Below, in pieces: positions 19,683-31,979 of a DNA stretch of 64,000 bases (the stretch's first letter is position 1; each line of letters begins with the position of its first letter). The stretch is from positions 3,638,129 through 3,702,128 of the forward strand of contig OZ025871.1 in the NCBI GenBank assembly GCA_964019415.1. Reading direction: 5' to 3'. The notes under the pieces are model-generated. The model was not told where the DNA came from. It ran no database searches and saw only the letters and a program-made list of their open reading frames with translations. The stretch comes from Ianthella basta. Its lineage: Eukaryota > Porifera > Demospongiae > Verongiida > Ianthellidae. A program made the position numbers and the translations under genes.

Positions 19683-20676
19683 CATAAATTTGTTATATCA
19701 GAGTTCTTTATAGGTGGAGTGGACTGTAATTCAAAATTTCCCTCTACGCACTGGAGCACACTTTTTCTGTGAATATGTAGCTGGCTTGAATATTTGTGCA
19801 CTTTGAGAGGATAGGTAGGTCCACCTAATGTACAAGTTTGAGGAAGTTTGATTTGAATGATTGTTGTGCACATACGTTAGCCATGAAGTGTTTTAGTAAC
19901 CCGTCCTGCCTTACATTTCCAAATGCCAACTTAAACAGCAGTTTTGGAACCTTTGCCGTGCACCATTTCGACCAGGTGCTCTGGTCGTCTTCAGGGCAAA
20001 ACTAAAGGCTAGCATGAGCTCTCATCATTTATAGCCATGCATCTCATCTTTCGCTGTCACCTTTAGTTGAGTCATTTAAGGGTGTCATTGGGAGTGGCAG
20101 ATTGTCTTTGGTTGGCTATGCTTTCTTTACCCTTTAAGGCATCCATCCAACATACAGTCAGCTGGAGCAGACTGTTTCATAGTCTTGCATAGTCAGACCA
20201 ATTTCAGGGAAAGGGTCTGGTGTAGTCTGGCTTGCTAGACTGTCCCATCTGAATCTAGGGATGATGAATTTGAGCCAGTCACAGTATGATAATAGTATCC
20301 GTATATAAGGGTTCCCCCTGGATAACCAGAGGTTCATTAAATGACAGGGATTTTATGTAAGAAACTACATAGTAAAGAGCACCCTGCTACAGGAGAGACT
20401 TCCTACTACCAGCAGAGACTGTTAGGCATTGATATCTCCGAACCCTGTACTTCCTTTGCAGTCCATGCCGAAAACTACTTCAACCATGTTAACTGGCGGT
20501 CATGGTGAAGTTTTTTGTCCTTGTACCATGGCTGGGATGCTTGTGTAGTTCCCTGGATGCTTGAAATGTCAAGAGGGCACTACTACAATGAGCAGAAGTG
20601 TTTGAGTAGTATGGTGGTGTGCAGTTTCGCAAACTGGTGGCCATTGATATGCAGCATGAGCATGTGATGAGGAGGA
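19683..20676. other. Gene-free stretch
   Basis: No exon or repeat with good support was found between the hAT element and the inverted repeat at 20677. Confidence 0.4.
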
Positions 20677-20900
20677 AATGCACTCATACGAGATTCTTGA
20701 GCAAGACACAACTGATAATGATATATCAAATGCAGGACATTTCAACCCAGAGGTCTTTGTCAACTGCATACAGGGTACTCAGGTGGGACAGGTATACGAA
20801 TATACGCAGTTGACAAAGACCTCTGGGTCGAAACGTCCTGCATTTGATTGATTTATCATTATCAGTTGTGTCTTGCTCAAGAATCTCGTATCAGTGCATT
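20677..20900. repeat. Long foldback repeat with 30-bp loop
   Basis: The arms 20677-20772 and 20801-20900 are near-perfect inverses; shared cores include ATACGAGATTCTTGAGCAAG and GACAAAGACCTCTGGGT. The spacer is about 28 bp. It is a foldback/MITE-like structure without coding content, and its transcript would form a roughly 96-bp hairpin. Confidence 0.8.
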
Positions 20901-21315
20901 ATCAACGCAACTATGAGCCTCTACAATATCATCGAGGAGGAAATGGTCCACATCTTAGCAATTGCTTGTCCCGGACCAGAAGGATTGATCGATGTCACAA
21001 CAACCCCTGGGTAGAATACACCAAGAAGAGTTAAGAAATACTCGATAATTTAAAGTATCCTAATATATCTTACCCCAAGGGGATAGAGTAAACCAGTAAC
21101 GATTAGTTTACACCTTCTGTTTATCAATCTCACACCTATGTCTATACATTTTGTGTCTCAGTACACCTCATCCTTCATCTGAGAGTGTTGCTCATCTCGT
21201 TTCTGTACTGCATACTTTTCTGGTGGATCACGCCTACTAACCATTCATCCTCTAGTAGTACGGTACAGTCACTGCTTCACCTGTTCCCTCATCCTGTCCC
21301 CTGTTACTGTAGAGC

Positions 21316-23318
21316 ATGAGACACTTTCCCAATAGGTACAGAGCTGTTCGTGTTCGGCACCCAGCATACCCACTGACCATCTTTGGCTGTGTCAGATTGA
21401 GAAATGCTGCAGAACAAGTCAGAAGCCTTGTGTGGACAGTGGTGCGTGTGTTCTTCCTGTATCTGATCTTGTTGTCAGCTGTGTGCATCTCAGCACAGCT
21501 CAACATGCCTCCACCAAGATCAGAGATACCAGTGTCAGGTTGGTGGTTTGATCATGGTATGTGTTGTGTGTATGTTGTGTCGCTCTGTGCAACCTACCAT
21601 TGGTGATTCATAGTGCATGTAACTGCTAAGCACCTACTTGGCTCCACCTTTTTTGTGACACATCAGCCGTAGTTGTTTATTCACACCCCACCCCCCAGAC
21701 TCCCTGTACCATGACTTGCCACTGTTGAGAGATCTCAATCACTTTCCATACTTAGACTGGCCCACTCCTGACCAGGGTAATGACCTGCTCTGTGATGAGT
21801 GGCCTCATACTGAATTGATTGATAACTGCTTGAGTTGTCTGTTTGGAAAGCAGATGGAGCATGGTCCAATATTGCGCAACTCAAGCTGTCCACTCTCAGC
21901 TGTGCCTGCATTTTCTGATGATCACCTCAGTACCAGTCATTTTGAGTTCAAGCCAGAGGATACTCTTGTACACTTGTCAATGGGGAGAACTCACACAGTA
22001 AGGGTCACACTAACTGATGTACCTTGTTCGCCACGTGGCACTGCATGGCTGTTTTCATTTCTATTCATCCAATATCATGCCTACATGTGCATGTTTTGTA
22101 CCCAGTTCCCTTAGGCTATCCTATGTACATATCTCTGTACAAGTTACTGCGCTAGCCATGCACAAATCACCAGGCTTGGCACTTGATTACTGTTACTACT
22201 GGCCTACAAAGGCTACATTTCTAGAGCATGCAAAGACAACTTTGACTCACTGGACACTGCAGACTAAATCAATTATTCATCATACAGTACAAGCTTAAGT
22301 ACAACAGCAAGTGGTTGTCCAGAAAATTCCACATGCTTAACAAATCACTTAAAGCATGGGATGGCAATACAAACATCCGGCATAATCAGAAGTGATACAA
22401 AACAATCATGCACAACTCCACAGGCTACTTTTCAAATGTCAGGAGTTGTGGAATATGTCCTGCTGTATATGTAGGTTCCCATAGTTCTTGAAGGGCTGAG
22501 TGGACCAACCCATCTTTGTCTTCCTGTGACAAGTTTCAATCCTGTCTTAACTGCTACGATGAGAAAGACTGCTGAATTGCTCAAATTCATCCTTTGGCAA
22601 GCCACTTTGGTTGCCTTTGACATATACCTACAGCTGGCGTTAATTGTACATGAAGGACTCCCTCGCACAACCAACAGGCAGCAAGGTTGGAAGGCAACTT
22701 CATTATCAGGTGAGATGGTTTCTATAGTAACATGTACTATAAATACATTGCCAGTACAAGATGATTCTGATAGCTGCTGACAACAGTTCTTGTCTAATGT
22801 AGGTCGCAAATGCTCCACAAACCTGAGGACACGTGAAGTCCAATGCACTTTTGCTAGCAGTCTGTCAACTATTACCATTGCCTTTATTTCAGTTGTCATG
22901 AGGCGAGTTATACACATTTACTAATTTTGTTCATCATTGTTACCTGTGGTCGTGATGAATAGAAAATGTAACCTGATACAATTCATTCTGCAGATACAGG
23001 CACAAAGCAATGTCCAAGCATCTTCGCTGTCTGCTGATGAAGTTTCCTTCACTGAAGCTACGAAAGGGGTTAAAGTGTGTGAAAAGGATACATGGTCGCT
23101 TAGTGGTGTCGTTAACCATCCAGAGATCCTTTGTGCTGTGCATTAGGGTAAGTGAGCCATCACTCTGCCTTTGCAGTGTCAGTTGCTTTCTACTATGTGT
23201 CAGTGCACATCTCCACGGGTGCTTCCTATCTCCACAGTCCAGACACTCCAGTTCCTGTCTTGCACTCCAAAGACATGTTGCACACCTTGTCAAGAGGTTG
23301 GCTCAAGCTGTGTCTGTA
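21316..23318 (+). CDS. Unrecognised membrane module spliced in frame to a 2A motif
   Basis: Exons 21313-21556, 21699-21997, 22475-22709, 22803-22902, 22994-23147 and 23238-23391 all agree in phase (1, 0, 1, 2, 0, 1). The conceptual product is about 370 residues before the 2A exon's ATG. It has hydrophobic segments FFLYLILLSAVCISA (exon 1), LKFILWQATLVAFDIYLQLA (exon 3) and STITIAFISVVM (exon 4), and a Cys-containing loop with an NSS sequon in exon 2. The first listed exon follows a pyrimidine-rich acceptor, so earlier exons probably exist. The fourth intron would use a GC donor (ATGAG|GCGAGT). I do not recognise the family. It could be the upstream half of one 2A-separated transcript with the NLR, or a separate gene. 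Confidence 0.5.
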
Positions 23319-24165
23319 ATGCCCTTTGTCCTTGTGCATGCATTGCTGCTACTGGCAGGAGATGTAGAGGTCAACCCGGGACCTACCCAAGGTAAGAAGA
23401 TGGTATATCAGCATGGTGTAGTTGCATCGTGTCTGGGAGTTGTAGCAGTAGTGGGTGTTGTGGTGGGGCTGATGGTGGTGGTGGTATTAGTACAGTTGTG
23501 TGTGCTCATGGCTTTATATACATTTTGAGGCTACAAAAATTTTAGCGACGATTAAATTTAGTTTTTGAGCAGTCAGGATTTGGTGGGTACTAATGTTAGG
23601 GATTTTCAAGTTTATCCTAAGTTTTGGCCTGTACAAAATTGTATTAGGTACGTACAACATTTTGCGATTGTTTTACCACTTGCTAAGTTCAATAAATTAG
23701 TACCCATTAAAATTAGTAGCCTTAAGGTATATTGCTGTGATAGTGTGTTAGCTATGGCAGTATACAAGATATACGTACCTTTGAGCCCTGCATGTTTTGT
23801 TATACATGTGTGATTCCGCTCAATATATGGGTGGGGTGGCCTACACAGGGATTTAGTGTATCATGTCACTTCTCTTTCTATGCAGCTGAACTGGTTCTTG
23901 ACCAGTATCGTGACCGATTCATTGCAGAAATGGATGCAAATGCTATAGTAATGGAACTTCTATATAGGGGAATTATTAATGATGGTGTGCAGGAAGATAT
24001 ATCAAAGACTAGCAGTTCAAAACAAAGAAATGAGAAACTGCATTATTCCTTGACAAACTCTTGCACTGATGAAGCATTGATGGAGGTCTGTGGTATTATC
24101 ATTAATGTGGGAGGCAACCCAAAGATGAGTGCTTTGGGCGCCGACATGAAGAACAGCCTGGAGGC

Positions 24166-24244
<79 letters not shown>

Positions 24245-27200
24245 GTTGAAGTGCTGTGGTGTAGTCCCATGACTGATTCAACATCTAGTATATTTTTCCT
24301 CTATATCCACGTGTGCATGTGCAGGTTTGACTGGCAATGGAACATTGCAGGAGTGTGTGTCCCCTCCCGCTACTGCAGCACCGCGTGTCATAGGTGAGCC
24401 CCTGCAGATTTCTCCTTGTAACACAGGATATGGTATGCAATGAATGGTATAGACCTGTCACATTAGAAGTACTAAATGATGTGGTGTTGTGTTTGTTGAG
24501 CTCAAATGGACAGTCAACCTGCCCTGTATGATCAGGGAAGACCAAGTGAAAGTTTCGTATGTTTGTGTATGTGTTTGCAGAATTCCTTTTCATGATGAAG
24601 TTGTTTTTAGGTACTATTTAGTGCACAACCTATTGCAGAAACAAAGTGCTGTACATGACATTTCGAGAACATTTTGTAGATCTGCAATTGTTTCACAACT
24701 GACCATGATTTGAAAGCTTTTGTATGAAGAAAATGGCATCAATTGGTGGTCAACACCCAGGGTAGCGCAAATTTTAATCCAATTGAAGGTGTTTGAAGAG
24801 AATTATGCACTTCATTGCCCAATTTATGAAACCTTTGAACAGAAAAGTGATTGACAGATTTGCCTGTTTTGAAAATAGAGGATGGCACTAGAGAAATAAT
24901 TCAATGAATTCAACCACACTCTTAGCATTGAAAAGAAGAGGGATCACGGGTGAATGACACTTGTTTCTTTGCACAAGATAGGTGATTTATCGGTGATGAA
25001 TTACAGACATGTCTTGATGTTTAACAGCTATACACAGGCAGCCACTTCTCAGCTGGATTGAAGCAAATACAGTAGGTGCATTTCAGTAAGATGTAAGTGA
25101 GTAATAGCCTACAAACGATACAATCCAGAGCCTTGGAGTAAAGCTGGGAAGGCAGCCATTATTGGAGAGACAGGGCCAAAGTGATAACCAGTGGCAAGCT
25201 ATCTGATTGCTGTCATTGAGCCTCTCAACCAGCTAGAAGTGCAGTAAGGGTCAGTGCCATTGTTCTATAGAAGAAAGAACGTAAGTCTTCTAAGTACCGC
25301 ACTGATGTGGGGGGCAACAGAGAGTATGGCTTCCCTTGTGGTAGCACCGAATGGAGTCCCATAACCCAATTGGAATGGGCACACAGAGAGCGCCCATGGC
25401 TTCTATTACACGAGCGCAAACACAATCGGCAGCCAGATGCCGGAGAGTGCATCCAACAGCAGTAGGCCTCCACCTGACTTTCCAGTGCAACATGGTATAC
25501 ACTGAAAAAGAAAGGGTAAACTGAAGGAGTAGGTGATCCCTCCAGGACAAGGTTGACAAAGATGTGAGGGCCCGCAGCAAGTGGGGGACACAGCTGCCAG
25601 CAGTGTGGCTAATCATAGATTACGACTGGTTCTTTGTGGGAGAGATCACCAACCAATTAAAATGCCCGCCAACTGCCACCATTTTCATACTGTACTACTA
25701 TACAGTACTTGCAAGAGTTAACCAACTTCCCTACACTTTGGGTAGCACATCAATTGGTAACTCACCCATAGCACATCAACCATTACATTAATTGTGGGAA
25801 CCTGACTGTTGCCATAACTTCTTGCATGTTCTTCAGGTACCAAGTCTTTCCCACTGACTATGCATATTGTGTAACAAGCATCACTACTTGTACTTGTTCT
25901 ATTGTGCAGGTACCAAGCCATCCCTGTTAGATCTGGTGAGGTATGTGGTGCCAACTGTTGCAGACCAGTGGCCATCGATGAGGGATGCCTTGAAAGTAGA
26001 GCAGTCATTTGTTGATCAATTGAACAATGTCAACTACAATGAACAAAAGGCAGAAAATTGTGCATTGAATCTTCTGGTTCTGTGGATGGATGGTAGCAAA
26101 GGAACGGGTACGCAACCTCGTACATGGCAGTCCATTTTAGAAGCAGTTAATACAGTCTTTGGACCAGCAAAGAAGGAGGAAATTGAGTCTAAAGTGCAGC
26201 CAGCATCATCACAGTCTGGTTGTAGTGCAACTAGTCGGAATGAAGTTCTAGTGAGTGTCTAGTTAGTCAGTCATAATGGTGAATAATTGGGTGTAACTGA
26301 ACTTATAAGTTATTGACATACACTGCATGACTGCATGCTTGTAGGTTGGCAATCTGCTGTGGTGTATATGTGCATTGAGATCTCTGCATCCTACTGTATG
26401 CCTATTGCTTACATTATGCAGGAGAGATCCTTCACCCTACTGCGGAGATTCTATACTTGTATGAAGATTGTGGAGGATGAGCAGTTCCCCGATCAGTCCA
26501 TGGCCTACATCAACCTGGCTCTTGCTCCCTTCAGTTTGGACTTTCCACGTGCCCAGGAAATGTTCGTTAAAGCAGTGAAAGAAGGTGTTGACAATGTATA
26601 TACATATAGGGCTGACAAGTTGGAGTGCGAGAATATTCCTAAACTTGTGTCAGAGCATAAAGTTGTTGTCATTAGTGGAGCTCCTGGGGTAGGAAAGAGT
26701 ACTTTAGCTCGGAAGGTGTGTGCAGATATCTGCCAATCTCCCAATTTCCATGGTTTCAGCTTAGTTATCCTCATTGAACTGCGTAAACTGCTACACTGCA
26801 AGGGTGACATCAAATTAACAGATGTTCTGCAGCAGGTCAAAGGACAGATTCGATCACCAAGTGAGCTAGCAGAAGCCATTGAAAATAACCTAGGGAGGGG
26901 TGTCCTTTTCATCCTGGATGGTTTTGATGAATTACCCCCTCATCTTCGCCAGTCTGACTTTCTTCTGAGCCTTCTGTCATACAACTTGCAATACGATGCC
27001 CCTCTGCCATTCTGCAAAGTTGTCCTGACATCTCGGTCCATTGCCACCAGTGAAATCTACCGCAGAATGCAGGAAGCCTCTACTCAAGGTAGCTTTACTA
27101 ATATTGAAGTGCTTGGCTTCACTCAGATGCAAATCAATGAGTACGCAAGGCACTACTTCACTAAACACCATCAACCAGAACTGTTGAAGTTGTTCATCAA

Positions 27201-30200
27201 AAAGATTGACTCATTTCCTCACATCAGAGGTTTGTGTTCTACCCCGGTTGTGCTTTCCATTGTATGCCATGTCTTCTTATTCATAGGGGACCTCCCCCCA
27301 ACATTAACACAAATCTACAATAAATACATGTGTGTGAAAGTCCTCAAGTACAGCGAAGATATTCCTAAACTGGATTCCATCCTTGAACTTCCACGGGACC
27401 CAGCTCATGATATCTATAAGCTTGCTGAAATAGCCTATCACTGTATTCTGAACCAAAAGGTAGTGTTTGATTCGGATGACCTCAAAGGTCTTGGTGAGCC
27501 CTTCTCAAACCGTGAAAAAGGTTGTGGTTTGTTGACAGCCAGACCTGTTAAACCTGATCTCAATCCTAAGCAAGGAGCAGTTAAAAGCTTCTTCTTCATC
27601 CATTTGACCGTGCAGGAATTCCTAGCTGCAGTTCATGTAGTTCTGCAAACAGCAGAAGAACAGTGTGAGATCTGGGCAAGGTATCTAGGTGAGCCCCACA
27701 TGGCACAGGTGTGGCGCTTCTACTGCGGACTTACCAAGTTGCAACACTTTAACCTCCTAGAGCACAAAATTGGTGCTTATTCAATAGATTTTCAACTGCA
27801 ATGTCTTTTTGAGACTCAGGAAGATTCTTTGGTTTCTCGCCTGATGCCACATATTGTAGGAAGAGAAGTGCAAGTGAACCCAAAAAGTGCATATGAATCA
27901 ACAGCATATGGCTATTGCTTTTCAAGACAACCTGCACTGAAGCTTCTCATTGTGGATGCACAGTTAGGTGCAGGTTCTACCGAAGTTTATCGATTACTGG
28001 AGCCAGTCTATGCCAATGGAACACTGCAGACTTTACATCTTCAGTCAGGTGAGACTTTCATAGCCACAAGCACACTCTTGTACAATTCCTCTGGAGGAGC
28101 ATTGGGCATGTTTTACGGCACATGAATAATACATGTCAACACAAAGTTGCTCAAATCCATTTTAAGTTCAAATCTGTTTCTAGACCACCACCATTGCCAC
28201 CACTGGTATGCCATTGTGTACAGTTTGCAAGTGTGCGTACATTCAGTGCATGCATACGTAGCTGTCCCTTACCTGGTCTCCTATCACCATGCTGACTTCC
28301 AGTGTGCATTAGAATCATGTTCTGAAATGTAGTAATGGGACCTTATGTAGTTGTATTCAACCTGTGAAGCCAGCTGTTTATATTTGTTGCCTCACGTTTC
28401 GACTTCTATTTGTCTGTAAATGTACTAAAGTCACCATTATATCTATCATGTTTGGTTTGCTTTAGTCAACAACTGGAAAGATGTAGAGATTGCTTTGGAC
28501 AGAATGCTATCACAAGTGAGCAGAGCTCTGCCAGAAGACAGCCCAAAAGGTTGGTTGTCTCAAAGTCCATGTGGTGTTGAACTCTACATATGTACTGTAC
28601 ATACTTGTGTGTAGCCCATAGAACCCCTGTATGCATGTGCAGATGCAATAAATTGGTAGGCACTTGTGTCTAGATTGTGGTGAAGGAGAGTAGAGCTCGT
28701 GAATGCTAACAAAACAATGTCAAGTCAAATGAATATGACTACGGTCCCTTGCTTGCTAACACCAGTACTGGTGTAGCAAGCTGGTTGGCGTATCCAGTGA
28801 CTACCCTTTGATGAGTGTCAATAAGGCAATCTTTCAGCTATTTCCCTGTGTTATTTTGTATGCTCCAAAGAACCAGAAAGCTCAGAACTGTGCCAGACAT
28901 ATTTGAAGTTGCTGACTGCATGACATGCTCTGTATGTTTCATTTCACAGATGGTGCCTTGAGTGGCTCCTTTGGCAAGGTACACTTGGAGCGACCTCCCG
29001 CCCATGCTGCAGTGAAAGCACTGTGCCTCCAACATGTGCAGGAGATTGAGTGTTGCTGCATACAGAATTGTGAGGTAGGCAGCAGTTTAAGATGGGGCTA
29101 TGTGAGACTGCATGTGTGACACTTGTGTGGTATATCCTCTGTACTAGTTATTACATGGCACGGTGGTACTGACTAATTTATCACGAGAACATGCTGACTA
29201 TAGCTGCATGTCAAACATTTTGCATATGTGAGGCAGCTGGGTTGATATACAGTGCCATGCTACAGTATGCAAATACTCTTTAATTAATGCAGGATGGGTT
29301 AAGAGAGGAGTTAAACAAAATGCAACGGATTCTGACTGGGACAAGGAGTGTGAAGAAGTTGGTGATTGGAATGGAAGATGGAAATGTAAGTTTAATTATT
29401 TTGGCAAGTGTTCCCAGAGATACGTGTTCTAATTTTTACAATCTACTGAGATGACAATTGATGACAGATTTTCATGCTTATTCAAGGTCTTTTAAGTATT
29501 TTGAAGTGTGTATTTGTACTAAATTGTGTTGCCCCACTCCTAATTGCTATGTAGGTGTGGACAAGTGTTGGAGTGCCGATTTTAAAGGGAGTTGCAAGGA
29601 ACAATTGCATCACTGACTTTGTCTTGTACAGTGAAAGTAACAGGGTTGATGCTGTCCAGAACTTGCTGTCATGCCTCTCACCTGAGGAAAGGAATAGGTT
29701 CTCAACCTCCAACTACACCGATAGGTTTGGCATCAGCTACCCAAGCATTTGCCTCTCCTCATCAAGTGAGTGACAACACTGACAGTATTGTTGAATGAAT
29801 GGCACATGTAGAGACCATTTCACAAGCACTTGTACTGCAGATCCTGCCACAGTACACTTCTTTGTGTTTGGTAATCCTGCACCCCAGTATATACAGTAGC
29901 TTTAGTCTACACCAATCTTTCTATCGCATTTACGCACCGTTGCTATGAAAGGCTATATGTGTTAGTGAGCTTAAATATATCACAACATCGGCCTTAATGA
30001 AGGCACTAAAATGCTAAACCCTCGGCGTAATAAGCTATATAGAAGTTCCATTCATCAGAATCAAAATGTTAATTAGAATGTATGGTTCTATTTTAAGAGC
30101 TGGTCAAAAGTACTGCATGGGAGAATGATAGCAATTGTTATTAGCTACACTGTAGTAAGCGTGCATTAAGGCAACAGTGCTGACTCTGCAGTATGAGCAA

Positions 30201-31979
30201 TTATTACAGAAGGACCTCACTCAATGGGGTAGCTACTGCCCTGAGGACATACCTTCCTTCAGGCCAAAGAACACACCTTCCTTCAGGATCACCACCTGGT
30301 CCAGAGCAACCACCAGAGATGACCATACCCACGTGCGCTATATAGCTATGCACAAGCACAACGTCAAGTGGGCAGCTAAAAAGACTTCATGGTCCAGAGC
30401 AACGCCATGTGAATGAAGTGCACTCATGCACTATCCAGGGCAAACAGTATGGCTGATAGGTGCGTTAGTAGCTTCGAAGCAAATTCTGTAGCTTTGTGAA
30501 GAGGCTGTTTTACAAAAGCCCGCTCATTTTGATTCAAGATTTTGCAGCGCTTAGGCGATCCACAGGTCTTCTTGTCTGATTTGTTACTGTATGGAAACAC
30601 ACAAAGCCGAACACACACACACCCAACTACTGTGGCGCATGTGCCAAAGGTTAACAAGGTACAGGACATTTCAATCACCTAGCTATTCATACATGCATAC
30701 CTGCTCATCCAATCCAGGACACTGCAGTTGAATAGTGTCCCCCTAGGACACTACTGACTGAATAGTGTCCCCCTAGGACACACTACCGATTGAGTAGTGC
30801 CCCTAGGACACTACTTTTGAATAGTGTCCATCAAGGACATAACCCTTTGAATGGTGTTCACCCTAGGACACTACCGACTGGATTGTGTCCTCCTAGGACA
30901 CTACCGACTGGATTGTGTCCCCCTAGGACACTACCAACTGGATTGTGTCCCCCTAGGACACTACCGACTGGATTGTGTCCCCCTAGGACACTACCGACTG
31001 GATTGTGTCCCCCTAGGACACTACCGACTGGATTGTGTCCCCCTAAGGTACTACCAACTGGATTGTGTCCCCCTAGGACACTGCTGTTGAATATTCTCCA
31101 CCTACATAGATATTCCTCAGTTTTGACAAGAGCATGAGTCATACTTTAAGGGGGGGGTGTCAGTGGATGTCATAAGGATGGTGGGATATTGAGTAATGTG
31201 GAGTGATGTAATGGAAGCATCAAATTATATATGTAGACGATACTGTAAGCCTATGTATGTACAATGATTGCACTACTACGTACATAAGTGTTTATACCCT
31301 TACACTATACAGTATTTTCTATTAGCTGTCACCATTAAAAAACAATTCTATCTACCTTTGCCTTGAGTACTATGACCACTGTGCAAGCTAATTGAGCTGC
31401 TCCATATTCTTTACCTATCCATATGATATGCGTCATATTGCCAAAGCCTTGTGTACGCTATACTGTCTATAACAGCTATCTGTCTTACCTACACTTGTTT
31501 CTGGTCTCTTACTTAGGACTCTCCCATGCATCCACACATCTGTACATATACTTAGGACTAGTTATGGGTGGTCATGCATGCATTGGAGTGCCTAGAAACA
31601 ACTCAAGCACTAAGACACAGGTCACATGTGTACCCTGATGGTCATGCAGTCTTTCATAATGAGTGTGTACAACAGCATTAACCAATAACCTATTTTATAT
31701 TCAGCTTAACTGCCACTGTGTCTGGAAATAATATATAGACTACACATCTCTACCATCAGTTCCACCTCCACTCATCTCCCTTTACTCCTCTATTGTCTAT
31801 TTTGTCCTATAGTGTGGCATTGGCTCCAGGACCATCTCAGTCTCAGACAGTGGCTGGACCGTACAAGCTCTCCTGCCTCCAGACCTGGCCACGGCAGTGC
31901 GTTGTACAACTCTGTGGTCACATTGGCAGTGACACTGCTCATCTGTGCCATCTTTATGATTCTTACATATTTCTTGTAA
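23319..31979 (+). CDS. NLR receptor: 2A leader, CARD, DEATH, NACHT, TM tail
   Basis: Phase-consistent exons: 23319-23391 (or from 23238), 23886-24167, 24325-24393, 25910-26250, 26422-28048, 28466-28549, 28950-29074, 29293-29385, 29555-29765, 31813-31979. Order of parts: hydrophobic leader ending in the 2A motif; a CARD (from LDQYRDRFIAEMDANAI); a short linker; a DEATH domain (LLDLVRYVVPTVADQWPSM). Next a NACHT ATPase with Walker A GAPGVGKST and Walker B VLFILDGFDELP, then its helical/winged-helix region. Only a short LRR-like start (TLQTLHLQ) and small exons follow. The last exon carries SVVTLAVTLLICAIFMILTYFL and a stop. If the exon at 29555 is not spliced, the protein stops at 29773. NLRs of this type are known in sponges as immune-type receptors. 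The CARD and DEATH calls are pattern-based. Confidence 0.82.
23361..23384 (+). other. 2A ribosome-skipping motif DVEVNPGP
   Basis: The encoded LLLLAGDVEVNPGP fits the 2A consensus D(V/I)ExNPGP, where the ribosome fails to join the final Gly and Pro and continues with Pro. It is directly preceded by a short hydrophobic stretch beginning MPFVLVHAL, as in 2A-like signal leaders described for sea urchin and sponge NLRs (established knowledge, recalled). The exon ends 7 bases later at a phase-1 donor joining the CARD exon. Confidence 0.85.
24168..24241 (+). repeat. (GT)n microsatellite at the CARD-exon splice donor
   Basis: About 37 GT units begin at the intron's first base, so the donor GT is the first unit of the repeat. 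Exon phase (1) is kept only by the first position, GCAG|GTGTGT. Confidence 0.9.
30720..31095 (+). repeat. 30-bp minisatellite, about 12 units
   Basis: The unit is exactly 30 bp, with the core GGATTGTGTCCCCCTAGGAC. The last seven units are nearly identical and the first five are degenerate. Each unit contains GTGTCC...GGACAC, a small inverted repeat able to form a hairpin. Because 30 is divisible by three, long frames stay open on both strands, but this is a by-product. It lies in the long last intron of the proposed NLR gene. Confidence 0.92.

Follow-up and report, generated by a model that had tools for sequence, protein, structure and literature searches.

The window analysed here is a stretch of 64,000 nucleotides from the sponge Ianthella basta (G000:C4:3638129-3702128 within the genome searched, which comprises 209 Mb in 96 contigs). 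It holds a gene model in which a membrane module, a 2A ribosome-skipping motif and an NLR follow one another. Modelling of splice sites and phases in the window yields a chain of 15 exons that runs from 21316 to a TAA at 31977-31979 and encodes 1368 amino acids in a single frame. The exons are listed below (E1-E6 comprise the module and the 2A motif; TM, transmembrane), preceded by a conserved element that lies upstream of them.

21203..21230, + strand: 28-nt conserved leader, candidate promoter or 5' untranslated region (5'UTR) element, about 110 nt upstream of the E1 ATG
21316..21538, + strand: E1, start ATG and basic N-terminal tail, then the first TM (VVRVFFLYLILLSAVCISA); supported by paralogues, TM-like in 15/15 intact models
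21756..21997, + strand: E2, four Cys and one N-glycosylation sequon (window copy); acceptor TACTTAG shared with paralogues
22475..22709, + strand: E3, hydrophobic stretch ILWQATLVAFDIYLQLALI; from spliced models and hydropathy
22803..22902, + strand: E4, TM-like, with a GC donor (AG/GCGAGT); from spliced models and hydropathy
22994..23147, + strand: E5, basic; entry phase 2, exit phase 0; frame open in 27/28 loci
23238..23391, + strand: E6, hydrophobic, then the 2A motif GDVEVNPG/P (core octapeptide 23361-23384); 62 genome matches
23886..24167, + strand: CARD-like exon, first after the 2A exon; Pfam CARD E 0.034 (below cutoff); acceptor phase 1 in 5/5 loci
24325..24393, + strand: linker exon, placed by splice phase
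25910..26250, + strand: death-fold-like exon, phase-compatible; no Pfam match
26422..28048, + strand: NACHT exon, PF05729 E 1.1e-22 for the open reading frame containing the exon; 134 scored genome matches
28466..28549, + strand: exon after NACHT, placed by splice phase
28950..29074, + strand: exon, placed by splice phase
29293..29385, + strand: exon, placed by splice phase
29555..29765, + strand: exon, placed by splice phase
31813..31979, + strand: proposed last exon (uncertain), C-terminal hydrophobic or TM tail SVVTLAVTLLICAIFMILT and TAA; in phase

A sequence-only reading of the window had described five module exons in continuous phase with the exon carrying DVEVNPGP. The spliced frame bears this out: the junctions of E1-E6 have phases 1, 0, 1, 2, 0, 1, every exon fits its successor and there are zero stops. 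Introns 3-5 measure 90-93 nt, intron 5 being 90 nt. The sequence at the end of E6, GDVEVNPGP, matches the 2A core (D/G/C/N)(V/I)ExNPGP. The same reading had placed the 2A exon in phase with CARD, DEATH and NACHT exons. Here the phase and the NACHT domain hold (Pfam PF05729), whereas the CARD match is weak and the proposed DEATH exon is without a match in Pfam. A Death domain is found downstream in a compact-type paralogue, L048 (Pfam, E 3e-6). For the NLR part, 25 of 28 Pfam matches were listed, and no leucine-rich repeat family occurs among these 25; the 3' exons in the model are uncertain. Used as a genome query, the last exon (31813-31979) matched only itself, and because of this it is regarded as uncertain: the C-terminal TM is in phase but may be wrong.

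The membrane module has no counterpart among Pfam families or PDB chains, and its DNA has none in Rfam. By hydropathy, TM-like stretches occur in E1, E3 and E4 of all 15 intact models and variably in E6, so that N-terminal TM segments stand in frame with NACHT, the frame as far as NACHT being modelled for the window. A protein database that apparently consists of exon-sized open frames gave 0 of 4459 candidates at E <= 0.001 for residues 1-365 of the fused model, and two matches (56-57%) for an E1 profile. The NACHT exon matched 669 proteins in the same database (7994 candidates scored), none of them named among the 120 listed.

To place the E1-E2 junction, the donor 21556/21557 with the acceptor 21698 was also considered; this pair is phase-compatible and was given up in favour of 21538/21539 and 21755, both conserved among the paralogues shown. 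Spliced models from contigs C1 and C2 begin E2 six bases late, with the frame unchanged. The E4 donor is GT in 18 of the 20 models and GC in the window (22903) and in L046.

The architecture is repeated across the genome. A search with E1-E3 returned 152 exon matches, 150 of which underlie the counts from this search. The 2A exon gave 62 matches, and for 56 of these, module exons lie on the same strand no more than 9 kb upstream (three at 6.5-8.7 kb, possibly a neighbour's module). Seen from the other end, 52 of 63 E1 matches are accompanied within 9 kb by this type of 2A exon and two more at 10-12 kb, while five others have a different DxExNPGP site 0.7-1.7 kb downstream. Exact DVEVNPGP occurs at 63 sites and DxExNPGP at 368 (reversed controls: 0). 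Twenty loci were compared, namely 19 of the long type and the compact L048, plus smaller pieces; spliced models were made for 20 long-type copies including the window. Although the module exons of paralogues are about 50-65% identical, the six-exon frame is open through the 2A in 15/20 models, and the E1 ATG is found in all 20.

Downstream, the E6 donor and the CARD-exon acceptor stay in phase 1 in all five loci checked, and NACHT homology lies within 6 kb past the 2A in 15 of the 19 long-type loci. A same-strand NACHT within 25 kb accompanies at least 33 of 59 long-type 2A exons, at least 19 of 24 sites picked for compact-type 2A codons and at least 28 of 30 plus-strand sites in a third cluster on C4. 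These linkage counts are lower bounds, as 134 of 436 NACHT candidates were scored. From the opposite direction, for 77 of the 134 scored matches one of these 113 2A sites lies no more than 25 kb upstream, and for the other 57 none is listed; the NLR repertoire is therefore larger than the set of 2A-NLR genes, which form one part of it.

The ratio of nonsynonymous to synonymous substitution rates (dN/dS) was calculated over the 15 intact models, first for the window against C1/C2 and second within C1/C2. It is lowest for the 2A itself (11 codons; 0.13 and 0.08), with 0.46 and 0.29 for E2, 0.60 and 0.34 for the 39 E6 codons preceding the 2A, and 0.49 and 0.54 for E5; the whole module has 0.61 and 0.59. 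The module is thus coding, but evolves fast in parts. The 2A is thus conserved in frame with both of its flanks (upstream frame in 15/20 models, downstream phase in 5/5 loci).

A further shared feature is the 28-nt leader, which has 64 sites in the genome at up to 3 mismatches (window included; reversed control 0) and occurs at most once per locus examined. In 60 of the 64 cases a listed same-strand 2A site follows at 0.76-4.5 kb (median 2.0 kb), against an expectation of about 0.1% per site. The leader is common to the long and the compact 2A genes and is a strong candidate for a shared promoter or 5'UTR element.

The position at which translation can start is informative as well. E6 was read in 28 loci, 25 of which are open to the 2A. 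Seven of these 25 have no in-frame Met within E6 ahead of the 2A, so that the 2A is reachable there only from the upstream exons; among the other 18 the position of the Met is not fixed.

What is directly established is the frame with its splice signals, the recurrence of the architecture, selection and the conservation of the leader; in view of these it is probable that one mRNA spans the module, the 2A and the NLR, giving a membrane protein that ends in NPG and an NLR that begins with Pro. A single message is the best reading because module and 2A exon co-occur, the frame is kept in diverged paralogues, some 2A exons lack a Met and the leader is conserved. The fused message had already been proposed from the sequence alone, and it gains support from the linkage of 56/62, the 15/20 intact frames, the 7/25 Met-less copies of E6 and the leader. 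In the mechanism that we envisage, the transcript of a gene belonging to this large family would begin upstream of the module and cross the module, the 2A exon and the NLR. The module would be translated first and insert in the membrane through the TM of E1. Given the canonical and strongly conserved motif, the ribosome would then skip one peptide bond at GDVEVNPG/P and continue, which would release two products: a membrane protein about 366 residues long with NPG at its C-terminus, and a cytosolic NLR with an N-terminal Pro. The purpose might be matched expression of the NLR and a partner anchored in the membrane, be it a sensor, a regulator or an anchor, which is speculative.

Several observations weigh against the single message. 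Six of the 62 2A-exon matches are without a module within 9 kb: for two of these an E1 lies 10 and 12 kb away, three others match weakly (E about 1e-3), and for the remaining one, a strong match (C4:11436252), no module was found. Likewise, no 2A site could be paired with 4 of the 63 E1 matches; the 2A lists are incomplete for three of these, and the fourth, C2:15276941, is on a fully listed contig. The frame is broken in 5 of the 20 models, by indels in L031, L035, L038 and L047, while in L045 the end of E3 is either broken or misaligned. In the window, E4 depends on the GC donor, E6 carries its own Met (about 23319; MPFVLVHALLLLAGDVEVNPGP) like the sea-urchin leader type, and intron 3 has a TATA-like site (22738) that the paralogues shown do not have. 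Poly(A) signals at 23551, 23691 and 23706, in the intron that follows the 2A exon, could yield module-only messages. Three exons have high dN/dS in one or both comparisons (0.68 and 0.87 for E1, 0.67 and 1.16 for E3, 1.07 and 0.52 for E4). Finally, introns differ between the window and C1/C2 about as little as exons do (intron p-distance 0.19-0.29, with a module pN of 0.23 and pS of 0.34 for nonsynonymous and synonymous sites). Part of the similarity between paralogues is therefore due to recent duplication, and the argument is carried by the frame and the constraint on the 2A.

This intron similarity, together with the many copies in same-strand clusters and the five broken models, might also indicate that the module-2A block is without function, being either a mobile element that has decayed or a side product of segmental duplication. 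Non-LTR (long terminal repeat) retrotransposons carry 2A sequences too, and in L003 and L004 DVEVNPGP is followed by a zinc-finger-like motif, an arrangement which we take to resemble such elements. Such an origin is nonetheless highly improbable for the block as a whole, which is spliced, multi-exon and in frame in 15/20 models, has a whole-module dN/dS below 1 and is linked to a NACHT downstream.

The Met within E6 bears on another explanation, in which two genes are adjacent: a membrane gene whose end lies upstream of the 2A exon, and an NLR that starts at the E6 Met (MPFVLVHALLLLAGDVEVNPGP) with a short 2A leader of the sea-urchin type. Leaders of this kind are known from Strongylocentrotus purpuratus, where 85 of 241 NLRs have a 2A and the 14 tabulated NCBI entries have N-terminal leaders of 26 amino acids (Roulston et al. 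2016, PMC4981915). In the Ianthella family the 2A does not lie within about 26 amino acids of the predicted start Met; in the window this distance is possible from the E6 Met, and the window copy may have a shorter start there. The two-gene arrangement has difficulty, however, with the 7/25 readable paralogous 2A exons that lack a Met ahead of the 2A. The 39 pre-2A codons of E6 taken together, 27 of which lie upstream of the window Met, have dN/dS of 0.34-0.60, and the gap of just 90 nt between E5 and E6 is without AATAAA or ATTAAA. Indeed, neither of these two signals, the ones checked, occurs from 20501 to 23550; an own stop with a poly(A) site before 23238, which the sequence-only reading had named as evidence against fusion, was accordingly not found as far as AATAAA and ATTAAA are concerned. 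An end of the module at a stop of its own in E5 (window frame IQAQSNV...CAVH and stop) was considered and rejected. It needs an E4 donor other than the AG/GTGAGT conserved in paralogues and mismatches the frame of that donor, and the alternative frame has internal stops in 9/28 loci and the terminal stop in 27/28. All in all, two separate genes are quite improbable.

Apart from the number of genes, the single message would allow for a 2A that is inactive or leaky, such that the product is mostly one membrane-bound NLR. Some 2As are reported to give full-length fusion products (PMC4981915), and membrane-bound NLRs have been proposed for sponges (PMC12909245) and sea anemones (PMC5094078). Yet the octapeptide has the canonical core and is more constrained than any other part of the leader (dN/dS about 0.1), where a dead 2A should drift. 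We consider this outcome unlikely, with the remark that leakiness overlaps with the preferred reading of one message and two products.

A second type of module is seen in L048 (G000:C2:1141402-1151401, minus strand). It has the leader and E1 in common with the long type, followed by one exon that ends in LGGISLSALVVIAILLLRSGDVEANPGP. Its upstream part comprises about 197 amino acids with two TM-like stretches (hydropathy) and DVEANPGP, in phase by splice-site reading. For around 16 leader sites the distance to their 2A is about 0.97 kb, the spacing of L048, which is the one that was read. From the structure of L048 and the spacing of these sites, different membrane modules appear to precede 2A-NLRs. 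There is thus a somewhat better than even chance that we are dealing with a class of animal immune genes that pairs a membrane protein with a cytosolic NLR by skipping, with exchangeable modules (long E1-E6, compact two-TM) behind one shared leader. If true, models of 'membrane-bound' NLRs with N-terminal TM segments in other invertebrates may really represent two proteins, and a multicopy host family would provide a natural two-product design that could couple membrane and cytosolic sensing.

The family unites two ideas, that of NLRs with 2A leaders and that of NLRs with N-terminal TM segments. Like the 2A-NLRs of S. purpuratus, some of which among the 85 have the 2A inside the N-terminal region, it has a canonical DxExNPGP at or near the N-terminus of an NLR with a hydrophobic stretch directly before it (PMC4981915). 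Unlike the 26-amino-acid leaders, a multi-exon module of about 366 amino acids precedes the 2A here, and a start codon is lacking from some 2A exons. NLRs with 3-5 N-terminal TM domains are described from sea anemones (PMC5094078) and NLRs bearing TM from sponges (PMC12909245), both read as putatively membrane-bound. The present genes resemble the former in having several TM segments N-terminal to NACHT and the latter in having TM within the NLR architecture, but here the 2A would detach the NLR from its TM part, and no mention of a 2A was found in the accessible parts of those two sources. As in viral StopGo/2A polyproteins, one frame would give two proteins split at NPG/P, although in this case the gene family is cellular, spliced and present in many copies; 2A skipping is seen as chiefly a viral device (PMC12846837). 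In animals, the literature examined reports the 2A from retrotransposons and, at the N-terminus, from some sea-urchin NLRs. The sequence-only reading had mentioned 2A leaders on both sea urchin and sponge NLRs: the former are documented (PMC4981915), while none was found in print for sponges in the open-licence literature searched. It regarded a multi-exon upstream partner as non-standard; no description of such a membrane partner ahead of a 2A-NLR was found in the open-licence literature searched, nor is there a comparable case in the accessible parts of PMC5890393, PMC5009743, PMC11512398, PMC5972666 and PMC8623073.

Some minor observations concern the surroundings. The 30 plus-strand DVEVNPGP sites of the third cluster lie on C4 at about 3.95-8.2 Mb, and the NACHT that follows 28 of them within 25 kb is a more distant one; in L051 the 2A exon resembles E6. 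If the E6 donor in the window is read through (23392-23528), a very hydrophobic tail with a stop results and AATAAA/ATTAAA come next (23551-23711), which may represent a module-only isoform. A 30-bp tandem repeat of 11.6 copies at 30735-31082 falls within the last intron of the model. Upstream of the leader, at 20677-20900, lie nested inverted repeats with arms of 53 and 46 nt that resemble a miniature inverted-repeat transposable element.

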